The notes beneath the pieces are model-generated. The model was not told the DNA's origin and searched no databases. It was given only the letters and a program-made list of their open reading frames with translations. 64,000 bases of DNA from Marinicella marina (GTDB lineage Bacteria > Pseudomonadota > Gammaproteobacteria > Xanthomonadales > Marinicellaceae): NCBI RefSeq assembly GCF_030065545.1, contig NZ_JASJNC010000007.1, forward strand, positions 124,001 to 188,000, in the 5' to 3' direction. The position numbers were made by a program, and so were the translations under genes. Shown here piece after piece: positions 34,516-44,503 of the stretch (position 1 is the stretch's first letter; each line of letters opens with the position of its first letter).

Positions 34516-36672
34516 ATGTCGATTCTAAAAAAACCTAACCCACACACATCGATGCAACTTGCCGTGAGCAAAACACCCCTCATCAATCAGGGGAATGCAT
34601 CAGAAAAACGCGCTGAGATCAAACAACACTTCATCAGCACCTACGAAACATACGAATCACTGTTCAAATGTCTGAAGAGTGAATCTGCCTTTTATTTAAA
34701 GCCAGAACCCTTAAGACATCCGCTGATTTTCTACTATGCACACACAGCGGTGTTTTTTGTCAACAAACTCAGGGTAGCTAAAATCATCAGCAACAACATC
34801 AACGAGGACATCGAATCCATGATGGCCATAGGTGTTGATGAAATGTCCTGGGATGACCTCAATGATGCCAACTATGATTGGCCCTCGGTACAAGAAGTAC
34901 AAACTTACCGCGATCAAGTTAAATCCATGGTCTTGGCGTTAATTGATGAATTGGATTTATCCTTGCCAATCAACTGGGAGGACCCGTTTTGGATCATTTT
35001 GATGGGCATTGAACACGAACGCATTCACCTTGAAACATCCAGTGTATTGATCAGACAAATGGATATCCAACACGTGGTTTCTCACAGTGATTGGCCACAC
35101 AGCAATGTTGATCATGACGTGGTGACCAATTCATTACAATCGATTCCTGGTGGCACCGTAATCCAAGGCAGAAGCCTTCCCAGCGAAACTTATGGTTGGG
35201 ACAATGAATACGGCCAGCAAAGTACCGAAGTTAAAGATTTCAAAACCAGTCAATACCTGGTTTCAAACCATGAATTCAAAGCTTTTGTTGATGATGGCGG
35301 TTATTTGGATGAACAATGGTGGACCGATGAGGGTTGGCAATGGTGCCAGTTCAAACCGGCCAAACAGCCAACATTTTGGGTCAATCGAGATGGTAATTGG
35401 CTGTATCGGTGCATGACAACAGAGATTGAAATGCCATGGAGTTGGCCAGTTGATGTGAATTATTTAGAGGCCAAAGCCTTTTGTAATTGGCTTTCTGCGC
35501 GCAACGGCAAATCCATCAGGCTACCAACCGAAGCCGAATGGTATCGCATTCATGAACACACCATGAGTGACCAAACACCCTATCCTCAATGGCAACAAAC
35601 ACCAGCTAATATTGACCTGAGTGTCGCCGCCTCATCTGTACCAGTTGATAAGTTCACCTTTGGTCAACAAAAGCTCGGGGATGTTATCGGTAATGTGTGG
35701 CAATGGACTGAAACTGCCATTGATGGTTTTAAAGGCTTCAAGGTGCATCCAGCCTATGATGATTTTTCTGTGCCCACTTTTGATGGCCAACACAATCTGA
35801 TCAAAGGCGGCAGTTGGGCCAGCACCGGCAATGAAGTACATACAGACTCAAGATACGCCTTTCGCAGGCACTTTTTTCAACACGCAGGATTTAGATACGT
35901 CGAATCGGAGCAACAAGTGGACCAAACATTTAATACTTACGAAACAGATGAGCTGATTGCTCAATACTTAGAATTTCACTACGGCGCGGCATATTTTGGC
36001 GTACCCAACTTCCCCAAAGCCTGCATCGATGCTTTGATTCCGCATGTTGATTTAAGCCACAATCAACGGGCTTTAGATTTAGGCTGTGCTGTAGGCCGCA
36101 GCACCTTCGAATTGGCCAGATATTATGACCATGTTGATGGTTTGGATTTTTCTACTCGATTCATCCGCAATGCCATCAATCTGGTTGAGCATGGTGAAGT
36201 GAAGTACATGATTCCTACTGAAGGTGAATTAACCGAGTTGAAGTCTTTTTCATTGGCTGATTTGGCTTTGGGAGACAAGGCCAACAACACCGAGTTTGCT
36301 CAGGGCGATGCCTGTAATTTGAAACCCAAATACAGCAACTATGACTTGATTTTCGCCGGTAATTTGATAGATCGCTTGTATCAACCAAAACAATTTCTCG
36401 AAAGCATCACGGAGCGACTGAACAGCAAAGGCTACTTGGTGATCACATCACCCTACACCTGGCTTGAAGAATTCACCCAAAAAGAAAATTGGTTGGGTGG
36501 GGTTAAAGTCAATGGTGAAAATTACACCACATTGGATGCACTGCGTGATGCTTTGCGTGACGACTTTGAAATGATTGCAGTGCCACAAGATGTGCCCTTT
36601 GTCATCAGAGAAACAGCCAGAAAGCACCAACATACCGTTGCCCAATTAACCATTTGGCGCAAAAAAGCTTAA
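34516..36672 (+). CDS. OvoA 5-histidylcysteine sulfoxide synthase/methyltransferase
   Basis: A 718-residue fused enzyme that makes ovothiol. The N-terminal DinB-like domain (about 35-190) has the iron ligand motif EHERIHLE. The sulfatase-modifying-factor (FGE-like) domain follows (about 205-460, GWDNEYGQQS, RLPTEAEWYR, GNVWQWTE, RYAFRRHFFQHAGFRYV). A SAM methyltransferase domain lies at about 500-718 (ALDLGCAVGRSTFELARYY). OvoA joins the sulfur of cysteine to histidine C5 and the last domain methylates the imidazole N. An adjacent PLP enzyme starts 8 bases downstream, as expected for ovothiol genes. No clear ribosome-binding site is seen before the ATG. Confidence 0.94.
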   Translation: MSILKKPNPHTSMQLAVSKTPLINQGNASEKRAEIKQHFISTYETYESLFKCLKSESAFYLKPEPLRHPLIFYYAHTAVFFVNKLRVAKIISNNINEDIESMMAIGVDEMSWDDLNDANYDWPSVQEVQTYRDQVKSMVLALIDELDLSLPINWEDPFWIILMGIEHERIHLETSSVLIRQMDIQHVVSHSDWPHSNVDHDVVTNSLQSIPGGTVIQGRSLPSETYGWDNEYGQQSTEVKDFKTSQYLVSNHEFKAFVDDGGYLDEQWWTDEGWQWCQFKPAKQPTFWVNRDGNWLYRCMTTEIEMPWSWPVDVNYLEAKAFCNWLSARNGKSIRLPTEAEWYRIHEHTMSDQTPYPQWQQTPANIDLSVAASSVPVDKFTFGQQKLGDVIGNVWQWTETAIDGFKGFKVHPAYDDFSVPTFDGQHNLIKGGSWASTGNEVHTDSRYAFRRHFFQHAGFRYVESEQQVDQTFNTYETDELIAQYLEFHYGAAYFGVPNFPKACIDALIPHVDLSHNQRALDLGCAVGRSTFELARYYDHVDGLDFSTRFIRNAINLVEHGEVKYMIPTEGELTELKSFSLADLALGDKANNTEFAQGDACNLKPKYSNYDLIFAGNLIDRLYQPKQFLESITERLNSKGYLVITSPYTWLEEFTQKENWLGGVKVNGENYTTLDALRDALRDDFEMIAVPQDVPFVIRETARKHQHTVAQLTIWRKKA

Positions 36673-36679
36673 TCATACT

Positions 36680-37795
36680 GTGCGCTTTCCCGCCTTCAAA
36701 ATGGCCGCCTACAGCAAATTGGCGGCAACTCACCATGCGCACAACTTACACAGCAGCAACCCACAACCCCTGAATTGTCAGGGGTTGAGCGAACTGATAG
36801 GCGTGGACCTCACAGCAGCGATCAGCCAAATGCCGTTTGGCTATGAAAGCACCCAAGGCCGCGAATCGCTGCGATCATTACTGGCTACCGAATTGTTCAA
36901 GTCCACGACCGCTGATGAAATCTCTTTAACCTGTGGTGCACAAGAAGGCATTTTTGTGGTGATGCAAACTTTGCTCAGTGCAGGCGATGAAGTCATCGCA
37001 TTCACACCGAGTTTTGAACCACTGATCACAGAAGCTCAGATGACAGGTGCAACGGTGAAAACCATCCCATTGATTCAAGACCAAGGTTGGCACATCGATT
37101 GGCAATTGCTAGAAAAATCTTTTTCTGCCCGTACCAAAATGCTCATCATCAATTTTCCACACAACCCCACCGGCACGCATATCAACGCTGAAGAACTCAA
37201 CCGCTTGATTGATTTATGCCGTTCAAACAACAGTTGGCTGGTCTCAGATGAGGTTTTCAGGGGGCTTGAACACGATGAGTCACAGCGCCTGATGGCCGCA
37301 AGCGATTTATATCAACGCGCCATTTCAATGGGCGTGATGTCAAAATCATACGCAATGCCTGGTATCCGACTGGGATGGATTGCGTGTAGAAATCCCGAAG
37401 TGATACAACAGATCAACACCATCAAAGCCCATTTGTCGATTTGTCAGAGTGCCGCCGATGCGCAGTTGGCTGAAGCGATTTTGCCCCACACCCAAATCAT
37501 TTGGAAATACCACGTTAAGATCATAAACGAGAACAAACACTGGTTGCATGGCAAACTGCAGCAACACCCTGAATTAAGCTGGCACCTGCCAAAAGCTGCT
37601 GCCACAGGCTTTGTTCAGTTCAAACGTTTAAATGCCGATACAACCATCAAGCAGTGGGCAGAAGAATTACAGCTGATGGTCATGCCGAACGCGGCTTTTT
37701 GTACTGAAACTCAGGGCTTTCGAATCACTTTAGGACAAAAAAACTCTCAAGCCAGCATCAGCCAACTGCTGAACTGGCAACCTCAAGCTTCTTAA
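36680..37795 (+). CDS. PLP-dependent aminotransferase fold enzyme, likely OvoB role
   Basis: A 371-residue class I/II aminotransferase-fold enzyme with PLP lysine Lys222 in SKSYAMPGIRLGW, and the typical NFPHNPTG and SDEVFRG segments. It begins with GTG 8 bases after ovoA; the resulting MRFPAFKMAAYSK start matches the family pattern. In ovothiol synthesis the sulfoxide made by OvoA is cleaved by a PLP lyase, OvoB, of this fold. The tight linkage makes that role likely here. Alternatively it could be a plain aminotransferase. Its 3' end overlaps the convergent GGDEF gene by 38 bases. Confidence 0.8.
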   Translation: MRFPAFKMAAYSKLAATHHAHNLHSSNPQPLNCQGLSELIGVDLTAAISQMPFGYESTQGRESLRSLLATELFKSTTADEISLTCGAQEGIFVVMQTLLSAGDEVIAFTPSFEPLITEAQMTGATVKTIPLIQDQGWHIDWQLLEKSFSARTKMLIINFPHNPTGTHINAEELNRLIDLCRSNNSWLVSDEVFRGLEHDESQRLMAASDLYQRAISMGVMSKSYAMPGIRLGWIACRNPEVIQQINTIKAHLSICQSAADAQLAEAILPHTQIIWKYHVKIINENKHWLHGKLQQHPELSWHLPKAAATGFVQFKRLNADTTIKQWAEELQLMVMPNAAFCTETQGFRITLGQKNSQASISQLLNWQPQAS

Positions 37796-39575
37796 GCTGG
37801 CTGTATACCACGATTTGATTCCGCCCCCTGTTCTTGGCTTCAAATAGGGCCAAATCAGCATGCGTAAGCAGCACCGGTAAATGGTAGCCTGAACTCAAGG
37901 CACTGCTGAGGCCAAAGCTGGCGGTGATATTGAATTCAGCACCTGATCCAGAACAGTCCATTTGCGCTATGGCTGCACGCATTTTTTCCAACAAAGCGAC
38001 CATCTCAAGCTCGGATATGCCTGGTGAGACCAGACCAAACTCCTCACCACCCAAGCGCGCCAATAAAATATCTTGATCAATCACTTCTTCACAACACAGA
38101 ATCACTTGTCTGAGCACCCAATCACCGACCAAATGCCCATACTGATCGTTGACATTTTTAAACAAATCCAAATCCATGATGGCCACATTCAATGGTTTTT
38201 GCTTGCTTTCACAGGCTTTGAGCATTTCGGCTGTTTTCTCTTCAAACGCTTTGCGGGTGAACACCTGAGTCAAGTGATCAATTTCTGAAACGTGTTTGAA
38301 GTAATCGTGGCGCTTTTTGATTTTGAATGTCCATACGATCAACAACATCAACAAGCTGAAAATAAGTAGCAGCATCAATTGTTGTTTTTTCGCCGTTTCT
38401 GCCGTCAGTTGATTTTCTAGTGACAAGACTTGGTTGCTTTGGTTGAGCTGTTCTATTTCTAGTTGTTTGGCCAGATTATTGTGTTTGATTGACATGTATG
38501 CCATTTGTTTGGCTTTGGAATCGGTGTATATTTCATTCTCCACTTGGCTTTTTTGACTCATGTACTCATAGGCCAATTTGAAGTCATTGCTTTTCAGCGC
38601 AAGCTGATTTAAGACGTGCAATGACTCCACTACCTGCAGGGTATTGCCCGTTTTGTTGCTGCCCTCGATGGCTAACAGGGCATGGCCTTGAGCCAAAGTA
38701 TCATCACCCAAGGCAAAATGAATCCGCGCGAGTAACATTTCTTTCAGACCAATCAGGTTTTTCGATTCGGTGGCATTGATCAGACGTTCTTGATCTTGCA
38801 GCAGTTTTTTTAGGACATTGATGTTGGCAGTATCATTTCGTTCAATCGACTGCTCAAACTCACTTTGGATCCAATTCAAAGTCAATAACATGGCATAGCC
38901 TGTCTGATTGCTGTTTTTACACAACTCAATGGTTTGATGCAGCCTTTCCTGTTCGACAGCTTGTTGGTCTTTGAATGCTGCAGCCAGGTATATCGCGGAG
39001 GCTTTACATAAGTAAATGTCATTCAGCTCGTCATGGATCACCAGCTGCGCGTACTTCTGACTCATTTCATAGATATCCAACAAATAATAGACATTGGCAG
39101 TGACAAAGTTAATTTTTGAGCGGATGACTTTATCGGGGTGATCTTCTACTTGACTGATGATGTAGTCCAAGTGAATCAAAGCTTGATTGTATTCACGGCT
39201 GATGGCGGACATGTTGGCCAAGGTGGCTTTGGTTCTGATTTTAACTTCAGTATCACTCAGTTCTTCGAAGAACCTTTCGTATTCGTTTTGAGCCGTGTTG
39301 TAATCACCAGCGACAATCCACTGGTAAAGTTCAAAGTATTCAATGAATTCCTTTTGCGCTGGAGTGGCTTGTGGACTAAGGATTTTGAGTTTATCTAAGT
39401 GCTCTTGAAAAGCTTCAGGATCGGATATTTTCAAATCATCCGCTGCCAACAGCGTGTTTTGAATTTCCAGTTGGGTGGGGCTGAGTGGTGCGTTAGATTG
39501 AGCAGCACTGAGGGCAGCATAAAAAATGATGCACGTGGTAAATAGAATGAATTTAATTGGTTGTTTATTTGACAT
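37758..39575 (-). CDS. Exported TPR-transmembrane-GGDEF diguanylate cyclase 2
   Basis: A 605-residue protein. The signal peptide (about 1-25) leads to a periplasmic helical TPR-like sensor region to about residue 360, one transmembrane helix (about 396-416, MLLLIFSLLMLLIVWTF), and a cytoplasmic GGDEF domain. The active-site motif is GGEEF near residue 506, so it should make c-di-GMP, and no RxxD inhibition site is clear. It is a paralogue of the protein at 40907-42673. It lies 157 bases after a borosin-like precursor gene. Periplasmic ligand is unknown. Its stop lies inside the convergent aminotransferase gene. Confidence 0.9.
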   Translation of the reverse strand: MSNKQPIKFILFTTCIIFYAALSAAQSNAPLSPTQLEIQNTLLAADDLKISDPEAFQEHLDKLKILSPQATPAQKEFIEYFELYQWIVAGDYNTAQNEYERFFEELSDTEVKIRTKATLANMSAISREYNQALIHLDYIISQVEDHPDKVIRSKINFVTANVYYLLDIYEMSQKYAQLVIHDELNDIYLCKASAIYLAAAFKDQQAVEQERLHQTIELCKNSNQTGYAMLLTLNWIQSEFEQSIERNDTANINVLKKLLQDQERLINATESKNLIGLKEMLLARIHFALGDDTLAQGHALLAIEGSNKTGNTLQVVESLHVLNQLALKSNDFKLAYEYMSQKSQVENEIYTDSKAKQMAYMSIKHNNLAKQLEIEQLNQSNQVLSLENQLTAETAKKQQLMLLLIFSLLMLLIVWTFKIKKRHDYFKHVSEIDHLTQVFTRKAFEEKTAEMLKACESKQKPLNVAIMDLDLFKNVNDQYGHLVGDWVLRQVILCCEEVIDQDILLARLGGEEFGLVSPGISELEMVALLEKMRAAIAQMDCSGSGAEFNITASFGLSSALSSGYHLPVLLTHADLALFEAKNRGRNQIVVYSQLKKLEVASSAVG

Positions 39576-39658
39576 CTATCTCATGAGTACTTGGCCACTG
39601 TTCTCTGGTGACTTTAACCAACAAATTCACAAGGCATGTCTCTACCAATAACAACTAA

Positions 39659-39710
39659 CACCCTGTGAAAGCCTGTCTTTCTCATCCGAAACACATTGCC
39701 CCACAGGGTG
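39659..39710 (-). repeat. 9-bp inverted repeat between precursor B and cyclase 2
   Basis: CACCCTGTG (39659-39667) and its exact complement CACAGGGTG (39702-39710) flank a 34-base loop. It is in the leader between the precursor B stop and the cyclase 2 start. No T-run follows it, so it is not a simple terminator. It could be a structured leader or a processing site. Confidence 0.45.
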
Positions 39711-39732
39711 CTGATGAATTGACTGAAGTGGT

Positions 39733-39909
39733 TTAGTCTTGGTCGTCTTCTGGCTCAACCAAACAATACAACTCAACGCTGTGGCTGAAAGTTTCTTCAA
39801 TCAGGTCTGAATTCAAATGGTTGGCTTCTAACATCGCTGCTGCCGATTGGTGCTGTTTCAATGACGTGCTTTGACCGATTTGTTCCAAGGTTTTAACTAG
39901 TTTTTTCAT
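39733..39909 (-). CDS. Borosin-like precursor peptide B
   Basis: A 58-codon gene read directly from the sequence. It starts MKKLVKTLEQIGQ and ends VELYCLVEPEDDQD. GAGGA lies 6-7 bases before the ATG. It aligns without gaps to precursor A (42721-42903): 20 of 58 residues match, including Gly12, Gln13, Met26, Cys49, Leu50 and Pro53. The N-terminal part is helical with a GQ motif, as in the borosin-binding domain of SonA. The C-terminal LYCLVEP is the likely core that the methyltransferase at 40046 would N-methylate, followed by an acidic tail. Function is inference; the coding status is well supported by the paralogue and position. Confidence 0.75.
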   Translation of the reverse strand: MKKLVKTLEQIGQSTSLKQHQSAAAMLEANHLNSDLIEETFSHSVELYCLVEPEDDQD

Positions 39910-39932
39910 TTATGTTCCTCACATGTTGTTGT

Positions 39933-39975
39933 TATTATCACAAGATAATATCACGAGACCAACGTGATTTGCCAA
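39933..39975 (-). promoter_or_regulatory. Candidate promoter and operators of precursor B
   Basis: On the minus strand, TTGGCA (39970-39975) and TATTAT (39945-39950) are spaced 19 bases apart. An inverted repeat ATCACG-N7-CGTGAT (39950-39968) sits in the spacer and another, TATTATC-N4-GATAATA (39933-39950), overlaps the -10. The spacer is long and the repeats are short, so this is a suggestion only. It would give precursor B its own regulated transcript. Confidence 0.3.
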
Positions 39976-40045
39976 CACTAATTACCACCACCCATTCGAG
40001 CCCTTTCTGGGAGACAATTAAATCCTTAAATAAATCTCAAACTGA

Positions 40046-40846
40046 TTAATCAGTTATGTGATCATTTGCCTGACTTAAACTGTTGGCCATATCTATCATG
40101 GCTTGATTGGTTTGCTTCGCAATGGCCGGTGGCACCACCAAAGTCGATTTCAATGACACTTCTTGGTGGGCCAGATCTTGCAATGATACGGTTTTAATCA
40201 TGGCCTGCTCTATCGGTAACACTGGACACTCGTATAAGGTCACCTGATGGTTTTTGGGGTACGTTTTAAGCAACAAATCCACCAATAACTGCCTTTGCTC
40301 TGGCGTGGTCTCAAAGGTTTTCATCGCTTTATCACCGGCCATCGCTATTTGCCACAGAATCAAGTAAGCACTGGGATCAAAAGGTCGGTGATTGAACAAA
40401 AACTGACTGGCTTCAAAATGGGCACAGCCATGCTGACCCGGATCGATACCTAAATCGGCATACAAACAAGCCTCTGCTGAAACACCCGGTTCCATGTGAG
40501 CCTGATAGCCCTCATCACGACACATTCTGATGGTTTCATGCGGCGGCCAAGCGAACACTCCTGGGTGACCATAATAAGCACCACACACCGATTTACCGGC
40601 CCTCACCTGCGCCATGATGGCAGCCACCATGTTGCGGTAAGTCACCATCCGTGATTGTCCTTCTTGGTAGTATGGCTGCAGACTGATGACATGATCATTC
40701 ATGGTTTTGACCCATTCTTCCACCAATTGGTTCGAAGCCGAGACAAACACCACATCAGCCTGTTCAATAAAGTTTCGAGAAATGGGCGTGATGTGCGCAC
40801 CCAAAGTCATGCCCAGTCCAACGTTGACCAGTTTACCTTTTTTCAT
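40046..40846 (-). CDS. Borosin-type peptide backbone alpha-N-methyltransferase
   Basis: A 266-residue SAM-dependent tetrapyrrole-methylase-fold protein. It matches the methyltransferase domain of OphMA and the split enzyme SonM rather than cobalamin or rRNA (RsmI) methylases. YYQEGQSRMVTY (59-70) matches the OphMA segment with the catalytic Tyr66, Arg72 and Tyr76 (here Tyr60, Arg66, Tyr70); the equivalent of OphMA Tyr63 is Gln57. YYGHPGVF (91-98), GVSAEACLYADLGIDPG (121-137) and FEASQFL-RPFDPSAYLILWQ follow. OphMA and SonM N-methylate the peptide backbone of a substrate; here two small genes nearby provide likely substrates. The protein has no fused C-terminal substrate, so it is a split-type enzyme. 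It sits 60 bases after cyclase 1 and 136 bases before precursor B. Confidence 0.85.
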   Translation of the reverse strand: MKKGKLVNVGLGMTLGAHITPISRNFIEQADVVFVSASNQLVEEWVKTMNDHVISLQPYYQEGQSRMVTYRNMVAAIMAQVRAGKSVCGAYYGHPGVFAWPPHETIRMCRDEGYQAHMEPGVSAEACLYADLGIDPGQHGCAHFEASQFLFNHRPFDPSAYLILWQIAMAGDKAMKTFETTPEQRQLLVDLLLKTYPKNHQVTLYECPVLPIEQAMIKTVSLQDLAHQEVSLKSTLVVPPAIAKQTNQAMIDMANSLSQANDHITD

Positions 40847-40906
40847 TGTTTAAAATCCTCAATCAAGACCTTGATCGGTCTCAGTGGTATTAATTGAATG
40901 TTAATT

Positions 40907-42673
40907 TCAGTGCTCGTTATGTGCCAGCACAATTTGATTTCGACCTTGCTTCTTAGCCTCAAACAAAGCCACATCGGCATGCGTTAACAACAAGGGCAGC
41001 GCATAACCTGAAATGTCGCTGGAAGTGTAACCAAAGCTGGCCGTTACTGCCAAATCAGCCGCCGAGTCTGAACAATCTAATTGCTCAATGGATTGTCGCA
41101 TATGTTCTAATTTGGCGTGCATGTCTTCTTGTGTGATATCCGTCATCACCACACAAAACTCCTCGCCACCCAAGCGCGCAATGATCATATTTTCTTCAAT
41201 CAGCTCTTTCACCGCGTAGACCACATTTTTCAGCACCCAATCACCCACCAAATGACCATGGGTGTCGTTCACGACTTTAAAATGATCCAAATCCATGATG
41301 GCCAATTGAACCGTTTTCTTTTGCTCACGTGACTCATCCAAAATAACTGACATCTGCTCTTCAAAGGCCTTACGGGTCAGCACTTTAGTCAAATGATCTA
41401 TCTCAGAAACTGCGCGGAAATAATCATGCTTCTTCTTGATCCTCATAAGCAACAGAATCACAAAAGACAAAATGATCAATATCAACAGAATAATCAAGCG
41501 CTGGTTATTCGCTTCCTGTTTGGCCAATTGTTTTTCCAGCTCCAATACTTCTTTTTGCTGATTCAACTGCTCGATTTCAAAAACTTTAGATAAATTAGAA
41601 TGTTTAATGGTCATGAACGCCATTTGTTTGGCCTGGGCTTGATCGTACATACCCAATTCAGCCTCGTTTCTGCGTTCCAAATAATGATATGAATTGACAA
41701 AATCCCCCATCTCTCTATGAACTGTTTCTAAGACTTTTAATGCCATGACCAAATACTCTGTTTGATCGGCATCACGATTCATATCTAAAGTCTTTTCAGC
41801 CATAACTTTTGCTTTATTCTGGTCGCCTTGCAATAAGGCGAATTTAGCCTCGATTGCATTAAACGCAGTTTTGTTATTGATATAGATTGAATTTTGAACC
41901 AGGGGTTTTAATTGTTCTATCAAAGCACTAACAACAGTCAACTCTTGTACATCTATTCCTGCCTGACTCAAGGAACGCTTTAAAGTATCTAATAAGATTG
42001 ACTCAGCAATTAGATTGTGACCATTTTTTGAACACTCATCAGCAATATCCTTGATTTCAACCATTGAGGTTTTTGAAGAGTCACTGTCAAGATGATGAAG
42101 GTTCTTGCTGTAATGTAGCCGACATAAATTTTCATCGGTTGGAGATAAGGAATAGAGTAGCTTACTGTATTCAATACTCAACTCCTTCTGATCCAATAAA
42201 TTATAAACCATAGAAGCAGCGGTATATGCTATGACTTTCGAGGCAATATCTGCTGTTTGTTCAACCTTATTGATCACCGCATCAATAAAGAAGGAAGCAT
42301 TTTCATAATCACCGACTAATGCACTCAAATTGGCAACCAACGCTTCAATTCTAATTCTGGCACGCAAATCATCACATGAGGGAATGATTTCCTTCATCTG
42401 ATTTATAGCCTCTTGAGTTAAACCTTCGAAAGCAACTTTGTACGCCTTTAAAAAACGGAAATGACAATACTGATAGGATGACATGCTACCTTGCGTTTGC
42501 TCAAGTTCAGACAATCCATCCAAAAACAGTTCATAATCACTCAGACGTTTGGATTCCAGTTCCAATAACTTATCAGTGATGAACACTGGCTCAGCCAGAT
42601 CAGATGTGATTTGTGCATTTGCCACCCATACTGTCAAAAGCAGTATGAATGGCACTTTATTAAGCAATTTCAA
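40907..42673 (-). CDS. Exported TPR-transmembrane-GGDEF diguanylate cyclase 1
   Basis: A 588-residue paralogue of cyclase 2. A signal peptide (about 1-20), a helical TPR-like periplasmic region, a transmembrane helix near 390-410 and a GGDEF domain with GGEEF at about 500. The start is TTG (42673): an in-frame stop (TAG) lies 2 codons before it, so no upstream ATG is possible, and another TTG two codons in is better spaced from AGG. It lies 47 bases after precursor A, so the two are likely co-transcribed, and 60 bases before the methyltransferase. Confidence 0.88.
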   Translation of the reverse strand: MKLLNKVPFILLLTVWVANAQITSDLAEPVFITDKLLELESKRLSDYELFLDGLSELEQTQGSMSSYQYCHFRFLKAYKVAFEGLTQEAINQMKEIIPSCDDLRARIRIEALVANLSALVGDYENASFFIDAVINKVEQTADIASKVIAYTAASMVYNLLDQKELSIEYSKLLYSLSPTDENLCRLHYSKNLHHLDSDSSKTSMVEIKDIADECSKNGHNLIAESILLDTLKRSLSQAGIDVQELTVVSALIEQLKPLVQNSIYINNKTAFNAIEAKFALLQGDQNKAKVMAEKTLDMNRDADQTEYLVMALKVLETVHREMGDFVNSYHYLERRNEAELGMYDQAQAKQMAFMTIKHSNLSKVFEIEQLNQQKEVLELEKQLAKQEANNQRLIILLILIILSFVILLLMRIKKKHDYFRAVSEIDHLTKVLTRKAFEEQMSVILDESREQKKTVQLAIMDLDHFKVVNDTHGHLVGDWVLKNVVYAVKELIEENMIIARLGGEEFCVVMTDITQEDMHAKLEHMRQSIEQLDCSDSAADLAVTASFGYTSSDISGYALPLLLTHADVALFEAKKQGRNQIVLAHNEH

Positions 42674-42720
42674 AACCTACCATGATAATTAAACATATTT
42701 TTCAACAAGGCTTTAAATCA

Positions 42721-42903
42721 TTACTCATCGTCATCATCATCGTCCGGTAATATCAAACAAATTAAATCTTGGCTCTGTGACTTGATCTTTTGAAAAACCG
42801 TGTCTTTCATGCCTAATGAATTAACCATGTGCTCAGTCGAATCATACTGACGTATAGATTGTGTTTGTCCTAACTTTTCTAGGATACGAACGTCTAACTT
42901 CAT
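42721..42903 (-). CDS. Borosin-like precursor peptide A
   Basis: A 60-codon gene starting MKLDVRILEKLGQ and ending DLICLILP followed by an acidic DDDDDDE tail. AGGAG lies 5 bases before this ATG; an in-frame GTG at 42909 overlaps the ribosome-binding site and is not used. Cys49, Leu50 and Pro53 occupy the same positions as in precursor B. The N-terminal LGQ-containing helix resembles SonA and the C-terminal hydrophobic stretch is the probable core. It leads the transcript with cyclase 1 and the methyltransferase. Confidence 0.8.
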   Translation of the reverse strand: MKLDVRILEKLGQTQSIRQYDSTEHMVNSLGMKDTVFQKIKSQSQDLICLILPDDDDDDE

Positions 42904-42935
42904 ACTCACTCCTCTTTGATGATATTATTTTTAAA

Positions 42936-42967
42936 GGTGTAAACTACTTACACCGCATAAAATCATA
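42936..42967 (-). promoter_or_regulatory. Candidate promoter/operator of precursor A
   Basis: The inverted repeat GGTGTAA-N5-TTACACC (42936-42954) lies about 33 bases before the precursor A start. TATGAT (42962-42967, minus strand) upstream of it could be a -10 box. If so, the repeat covers the start of transcription, as an operator often does. A matching -35 box is not clear. Confidence 0.4.
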
Positions 42968-43087
42968 GCATGTTTTATTATCAGCTTTGAATGTTTTTAA
43001 TAATCAATTAGATACAGCCATTTGAGTAATGAAAAACTGTATTTATTTCATTGACTACATTCGTTGATAATAATCAGTAAACCTTCA

Positions 43088-43606
43088 TTATTTCAATTCC
43101 CAATACCTGAAGCAATTATCTCGGCCTGCCTTTGATGTCAATGAAGCTTTGAAGCCTAAATTTTCATAGCAATTATTTGCTGTTACGTTTTTAACAGCAG
43201 TAATTGCTGTAAATTTTTTGACTGGAAATTCGGTTCGGGCATCTGCCATCAATGCGTGATGAGCTTTTTTAAAAATACCTTTACCCTGGAACTCGGGTAA
43301 AACCATGATACCTAATTTAACAATCTGCGTAGATGCATTCCAATGTAGACTGAAAATCCCCAGATCATTCAATTTCTTGTTAGCATCACACCAACCACTA
43401 CCTGATAAATAACCTTTTAAAACGAAGTATTTGGCAAAACCTCGAGACACTTCCTTTAACATAGTAATAATTAGCTGATGAACCTCTTGATCATTTTTAA
43501 CGTTGCCTATGTGTTTCATGACAGTTGCATCTTGGTATAAACGTTTAATTAAATTGATGTCAGTTGCCAATAATTGCCTATATCTCAGTTCTGTATCAAA
43601 AATCAT
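43088..43606 (-). CDS. GNAT acetyltransferase
   Basis: A 172-residue GNAT of the RimJ/RimL type. The acetyl-CoA loop is seen in VLPEFQGKGIFKKAHHAL, and ENLGFKASL is near the end. The DNA is more AT-rich than its neighbours. It lies 185 bases upstream of precursor A on the same strand, so it may or may not belong to the borosin-like locus. Substrate unknown: protein N-terminus, aminoglycoside and small amines are all possible. Confidence 0.8.
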   Translation of the reverse strand: MIFDTELRYRQLLATDINLIKRLYQDATVMKHIGNVKNDQEVHQLIITMLKEVSRGFAKYFVLKGYLSGSGWCDANKKLNDLGIFSLHWNASTQIVKLGIMVLPEFQGKGIFKKAHHALMADARTEFPVKKFTAITAVKNVTANNCYENLGFKASLTSKAGRDNCFRYWELK

Positions 43607-43696
43607 GACTCAATAAATATTAACTAATACTAAAAAAACTTCATACACAATACACATCATATTTCATATCATAATACATTTTTAGACCTAAGCACG

Positions 43697-44503
43697 ATGA
43701 TCAATTTCATAACAGTTTTAACGCTAGTTGCACTATTTTTTCTTATCATGTTTTATTGGATCAGAAATAGAAGACTCAAAAAGCGTCAAAAAATATACAA
43801 GTTACCCACACCTGGACCTTGGGTTGATTACATCAAAAACAACGTAGCCATCTATCATTTCCTACCCCAACCTTTACAACAAGAGTTGCTGGGACATGTG
43901 AATGTTTTTCTGGCAGAAAAATATTTTTCAGGCCACGCCGGGCTTGAAGTCACTGATGAGATGCGCGTGACCATAGCGGCACAAGCTTGTTTGTTGTTGC
44001 TTAATCGCAAAACCAATTACTACCCACACCTGAAAACCATCATGATCTACCCAGCTGGTTTTAAAAACCCCAATCACCACGACAAACCAGGTCACCACCT
44101 GGGTGAATCATGGGTGCGGGGACCAGTTATATTGTCTTGGAATGATTCAATCCATGGTGCCAGGAATGCCAAAGACGGCACCAATGTGGTGATTCACGAA
44201 TTTGCACACCAACTCGATCAGGCAGATGGTGCTGGCGATGGCAGGCCTTGGTTTGACAGTGCCCACATCAAAACCTGGGGCAAAGTCATGAGCAAAGAGT
44301 TCAAAAGCCTGATCATCAAAGCCAAACTTAATAAGCGCTCTTTTTTGGATCATTACGGTGCCACCAATCCGGCTGAATTCTTCGCCGTTTCATCCGAACA
44401 CTTTTTTGAACAGCCGAAAACTTTCAAACGCAAACACCCTGAACTGTATCAAATACTTTCCGGCTATTACCGCCTGGACCCATCAAGCTGGTTGATAAAA
44501 TAA
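43697..44503 (+). CDS. MtfA-like zinc peptidase (M90)
   Basis: A 268-residue M90-family protein. One transmembrane helix near the N-terminus (about 4-22) precedes the peptidase core with VIHEFAHQLDQADGA (zinc-binding HEFAH). E. coli MtfA is 265 residues; it binds the Mlc (DgsA) repressor and has aminopeptidase activity. No Mlc gene is in the window, so the regulatory role is uncertain. It is divergent from the GNAT gene. Confidence 0.9.
   Translation: MINFITVLTLVALFFLIMFYWIRNRRLKKRQKIYKLPTPGPWVDYIKNNVAIYHFLPQPLQQELLGHVNVFLAEKYFSGHAGLEVTDEMRVTIAAQACLLLLNRKTNYYPHLKTIMIYPAGFKNPNHHDKPGHHLGESWVRGPVILSWNDSIHGARNAKDGTNVVIHEFAHQLDQADGAGDGRPWFDSAHIKTWGKVMSKEFKSLIIKAKLNKRSFLDHYGATNPAEFFAVSSEHFFEQPKTFKRKHPELYQILSGYYRLDPSSWLIK

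Follow-up and report, generated by a model that had tools for sequence, protein, structure and literature searches.

We analysed a 64,000-nucleotide stretch (the window) of the 3.46 Mb Marinicella marina genome around a 58-codon gene, precursor B, that very probably encodes a split-borosin precursor, as judged from sequence comparisons. Directly downstream lies the gene for receptor 2, a predicted membrane protein that joins a TPR sensor to a GGEEF cyclase domain. We favor the explanation, at a probability of roughly 0.55 for the whole, that the two form a borosin peptide-receptor signalling cassette. The gene order on the minus strand is GNAT, precursor A, receptor 1, methyltransferase, precursor B, receptor 2 (Table 1), and the one enzyme would serve two cassettes, A with receptor 1 and B with receptor 2. 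The reality of the gene, its homology, its linkage, the predicted fold of the sensor and the conservation of these parts are direct results of the analysis. The linkage provides a concrete, testable peptide receptor and would join RiPP biosynthesis to c-di-GMP signalling, with a gene short enough to be dropped by length filters as a key component. Judged by the methyltransferase, found in 145 of the 299 sampled genomes of the order, the system recurs in about half of them.

Table 1. Features of the precursor locus, in window coordinates
Feature	Position	Strand	Remarks
Precursor B, 58 aa	39733..39909	-	ATG...TAA frame
Shine-Dalgarno-like GAGGA of B	39916..39920	-	6 bases 5′ of ATG
Split-borosin α-N-methyltransferase, SonM-like, 266 aa	40046..40846	-	Y60, R66, Y70 = SonM Y58, R67, Y71
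Precursor A, 60 aa	42721..42903	-	from ATG at 42903
Shine-Dalgarno-like GAGGAG of precursor A	42909..42914	-	5′ of A
Receptor 2, partner of B	37758..39575	-	signal peptide, Rap-like TPR sensor, TM, GGEEF cyclase
Receptor 1, partner of A, 588 aa	40907..42673	-	architecture as in receptor 2
GNAT acetyltransferase	43088..43606	-	

Marinicella meishanensis, the closest named relative found, carries a related locus (L005). In both species an M90 (MtfA-like) metallopeptidase gene (window 43697-44503, plus strand) adjoins the cluster. The loci of the family mostly have a GNAT gene 5′ of the methyltransferase, and it recurs 5′ of either the methyltransferase or orphan precursor-receptor cassettes (the window, Table 1; L005, 8759-9382; L078, 6204-6782; L080, 66-605); this recurrent GNAT might be a modifier of the peptide. 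Also in the window are ovoA, which encodes 5-histidylcysteine sulfoxide synthase, and after it a PLP aminotransferase gene (34516-37795).

Between precursor B and receptor 2 lies an unusually long gap of 157 bases (folding z of the intergenic stretch, -2.55) containing a strong stem-loop, CACCCTGTG...CACAGGGTG (39659-39711, minus strand), which may determine how much B is expressed relative to the receptor. An Rfam search of 37500-43800 gave no matches, a promoter scan of the locus gave no signal above background, and a terminator scan of the locus rose only slightly above it.

Precursor B, its family and its methyltransferase

The frame of precursor B reads from ATG (39909) to TAA and is predicted to encode a helical leader, spanning about the first 45 residues, and then the C-terminal segment ELYCLVEPEDDQD. 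In the predicted model (pLDDT 81) the leader is short and helical and the tail extended, and its three helices compare with five in the binding domain of type IV split borosins; no signal peptide was predicted for B. An earlier sequence-only reading had noted a GAGGA before the ATG of this short frame and an ungapped match to precursor A, and both were confirmed. Precursors A and B are identical at 20 of 58 positions, and their alignment reproduces the shared G12, Q13, M26, C49, L50 and P53 as well as the acidic tail that ends both. None of 200,000 shuffles of B against A reached 20 identities (mean 5.0, maximum 15), nor did any when the leader and tail were shuffled separately (mean 6.0, maximum 17). 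The most likely start of precursor A is the ATG at 42903 (AGAGGAG upstream, 60 codons) and not a GTG at 42909; taken from this ATG, A and B start in register. That reading had also placed a tiny frame before each cyclase, and A and B indeed each lie directly 5′ of a GGDEF protein.

With an iterated profile, 44 distinct precursor frames were recovered from the family, the order beyond it and one MAG. A 39-row precursor alignment shows no variation at Met1 and Cys49 and at least 90% conservation of L8, E9, G12 and P53; the precursor tail is variable, and the Cys is lost in many members of the order. The comparison of related genomes that the sequence-only reading had proposed gave dN/dS values of 0.18, 0.08, 0.51, 0.03 and 0.14 for five close species pairs, indicating purifying selection on the precursor; these are pairs of relatives and exclude B, between which and its nearest relatives synonymous sites are saturated. 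B is identical to five relatives and to A at more residues than in simulations of neutral evolution, of which at most 11 in 2000 reached as many. Relatives that keep the methylase beside a broken frame, named earlier as a refutation, were sought within the genus, where one or more intact precursors accompany the methyltransferase in each of the 14 genomes that encode it. With its ribosome-binding site, the conservation of its family, selection in close pairs and the synteny described below, B is, as first proposed, a real gene with near certainty.

In a genus genome without the methyltransferase (G011), the receptor persists beside the same ovoA and aminotransferase neighbors, which adjoin the receptor gene in a further genome (G015) as well. 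Ahead of the orphan receptor of G011 lies a frame of 56 codons whose ribosome-binding site is good (L226, 3743-3961, minus strand). This frame keeps an IGQ-x-x-SL stretch and has no Cys-Pro-acidic end, and its match to the precursors is not significant (E 0.37); it fits a relaxed constraint on the core after loss of the enzyme.

The methyltransferase belongs to the Pfam family TP_methylase and has SonM as its best solved relative (E 6.8e-65), which scores above the fungal OphMA group (E about 1e-43 for OphMA). It carries equivalents of the catalytic Tyr, Arg and Tyr of SonM (Y58, R67 and Y71; PMC8429565) and is the only SonM-like methyltransferase gene in the genome. Searched directly against Pfam, NCBIfam and the PDB, B gave no matches, and its direct comparison with SonA was not significant. 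The fold search of the PDB with the B model returned one chance match and none that was meaningful, a result that does not count against kinship with SonA. The homology of B to SonA runs through intermediates. The B family aligns over its whole length with the order-wide precursor profile (hhalign, 98.6%, E 1.3e-15), and a profile of 38 order-wide precursors matches SonA (E 1.9e-6), with profile residues 1-60 facing the SonA leader/binding domain. The adjacent SonM-like enzyme and these order-wide homologues support the earlier view of B as a borosin precursor, and the sequence shows a separate methyltransferase, its catalytic residues and a small separate precursor, as in a type IV split borosin.

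Pairing of precursors with TPR-TM-GGDEF proteins

A TPR-TM-GGDEF protein is encoded directly 3′ of the precursor, on the same strand, in 42 of 42 evaluable cases (two other precursors, at contig edges, were left out), and this pairing is a more informative feature than the position before each cyclase. Methyltransferase loci of the order number 102, of which 99 are evaluable (three lie at contig edges), and 94 of the 99 are linked to such a protein. The receptor is downstream in 88 of these, in an overlapping frame in one (L169, missed by the distance rule and counted here), upstream in four and part of a fusion in one (L113); the other five evaluable loci have no such receptor nearby. Although the host genome contains 27 GGDEF frames, the sensor is common only to the two that adjoin precursors.

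Some loci are arranged differently. At L109, L110, L112 and L114 the TPR-GGDEF gene lies directly 5′ rather than 3′ of the methyltransferase, with no recognised precursor. The fusion at L113 (4276-6864) is an 863-aa protein with TPR, GGDEF and borosin-type methyltransferase parts. Tandem TPR-GGDEF receptors without a precursor of their own occur at L067 (9604-11373), L081 (3882-5681) and L082 (8935-10767).

The sensor is also found with another output. In two genomes from other orders it is joined to a hybrid histidine kinase in one protein and adjoins a borosin precursor. At L218 a TPR hybrid histidine kinase comes after a precursor, and L219 encodes a SonA-like precursor, a TPR hybrid kinase, a methyltransferase and a TPR-GGDEF protein in series.

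In the receptor tree, five cassettes with a Cys-x-x-x-Pro-Gly-Asp core form one clade (95/91), which indicates joint inheritance of peptide and receptor. Distances among sensors correlate with those among leaders (r 0.69) more strongly than with those among cores (r 0.35). With GGDEF divergence removed, the partial r is 0.54 for leader and sensor and 0.13 for core and sensor (44 of 1000 permutations as high). We dropped the core-sensor mirror test as a proof of specificity in view of this weak correlation, and the stronger correlation of the leader leaves room for an intracellular role.

The sensor and the proposed role of the peptide

Receptor 2 comprises a signal peptide, a sensor (residues about 33-360), a TM segment (about 399-421) and a GGEEF cyclase domain (430-595), and its predicted model is of high confidence (pLDDT 93.7). 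The GGEEF motif and substrate residues are intact in 60 of 60 rows, and the domain matches diguanylate cyclase structures. TPR solenoids generally resemble one another. Residues 32-360 of the model align with RapF-PhrF (4i9c; Z 23.0, rmsd 4.3, 312 residues) and the sensor with phage Phi3T Rap plus pheromone (8rsv; Z 22.5), scores that are inflated by the TPR repeats. An unrelated degron-binding TPR protein (8jal) scores similarly (Z 23.7), and the matches thus point to a TPR superhelix of the peptide-binding type rather than showing descent; the resemblance of the modelled sensor to Rap is suggestive only.

Co-varying cysteine pairs are typical of an oxidising compartment. Cys190 and Cys219 of the sensor are present in 60 of 60, and Cys76 and Cys106 occur together in 25, are both absent from 35 and never occur singly, having been gained or lost jointly in at least three changes on the tree. 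This agrees with the pattern expected of disulfides. The signal peptide, the TM segment that follows the sensor and the co-varying pairs together suggest that the sensor is probably periplasmic, or at least outside the cytoplasm. A thiol link between Cys49 of the peptide and Cys190/219 of the receptor was considered and dropped, as these receptor cysteines persist even opposite a precursor tail that has no Cys (L100).

In the mechanism we propose, the helical leader of B would be bound by the shared SonM-like enzyme, which, by analogy with SonM/SonA, would methylate backbone nitrogens of the hydrophobic C-terminal segment around Y48-C49-L50-V51. The tail would exit the cell or reach the periplasm, and the mature peptide would bind the TPR sensor encoded directly downstream. 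From outside the cytoplasmic membrane, the sensor would alter the activity of its own cytoplasmic GGEEF domain and so change c-di-GMP, the direction of which we could only infer. The mechanism draws support from the 42/42 pairing, the 94/99 linkage and the reuse of the sensor with a histidine kinase output. Counted against it are the lack of an exporter or leader peptidase directly beside the locus genes, of a C39-peptidase exporter in the host genome and of a signal peptide in B; the tandem receptors without a precursor and the five loci without a receptor; and the closer tracking of the sensor by the leader than by the core, where a ligand made of the core alone predicts otherwise. We give about even odds that the peptide from B is the ligand of its paired receptor.

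An effector role for the peptide, as a metal binder or antimicrobial, is unlikely but is the strongest competitor: B would still be a borosin precursor, and the TPR-GGDEF protein would sense another signal and time the production or release of the peptide. The acidic, Cys-containing tail could bind metal, and two observations agree with this role: the host genome has no C39-peptidase exporter, and at L216 (3236-9076), in a relative, a C39-peptidase ABC exporter gene comes after the GNAT and SonM-like methyltransferase genes, the 9.7 kb of this locus containing no TPR-GGDEF. Yet the tail varies and often lacks the Cys, and the provision of one receptor per precursor, the arrays of cassettes on one enzyme and the use of the same sensor with different outputs favor recognition of the peptide. 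The exporter at L216 is itself a possible route of borosin export in another lineage.

It is improbable that the precursor always stays in the cell and acts there in folded form, with or without methylation, by direct binding to the receptor or cyclase. The absence of a signal peptide and exporter for B, the leader-sensor covariation beyond GGDEF divergence and the fusion of the methyltransferase to the cytoplasmic end of TPR-GGDEF in L113 agree with such a role, but the sensor lies after a signal peptide and before the TM segment and has cysteine pairs of the kind expected in an oxidising compartment. A chance open frame or pseudogene is an extremely improbable reading of B. Its shortness and the lack of a Pfam or NCBIfam model for its family speak for this reading; against it stand its conservation across species, selection in close pairs, ribosome-binding site and 42/42 synteny.

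Relation to known systems

Split borosins are already known; to them B adds a member whose leader is short and whose tail is acidic and contains a Cys. When split borosins were described, no pathway was tied to a final product (PMC8429565). The legend of Figure 1 in PMC11395268 names a GGDEF domain among borosin architectures, a likeness to the present loci on account of which the bare association of borosins with GGDEF may not be new. A search of a limited set of papers, which lacks three central borosin studies, found none linking borosins to a diguanylate cyclase in the role of receptor.

The locus resembles the type IV split borosin SonM/SonA of Shewanella oneidensis (PMC8429565) in its separate SonM-family methyltransferase, with Tyr/Arg/Tyr equivalents, and in its small separate precursor, whose order-wide homologues match the SonA binding domain. 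It differs in that B has 58 rather than 71 residues, with an apparently reduced leader and a Cys and acidic tail, and is by itself too diverged to match SonA; the Marinicella locus also contains two precursor-receptor pairs.

Like the Rap-Phr systems of the RRNPP family (PMC10075063), the locus places a propeptide gene beside a TPR receptor gene, and RapF-PhrF and phage Rap are structural matches of its predicted sensor. RRNPP receptors come from Firmicutes and work inside the cell, on peptides thought to be short and unmodified (PMC10075063, PMC12998947). In the Marinicella locus, in contrast, the sensor is predicted to be periplasmic and to drive a membrane diguanylate cyclase, in a gammaproteobacterium and with a peptide methyltransferase in the locus. 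We rejected filing the system as RRNPP, as the predicted topology (signal peptide, TM segment, Cys pairs) is not that of an intracellular receptor. More tentatively, and with somewhat less than even odds, split borosins of this lineage may be backbone-methylated pheromones read by cognate periplasmic Rap-like TPR receptors with an exchangeable output (diguanylate cyclase or histidine kinase), a Gram-negative RRNPP-like language in which one methyltransferase serves several pairs.
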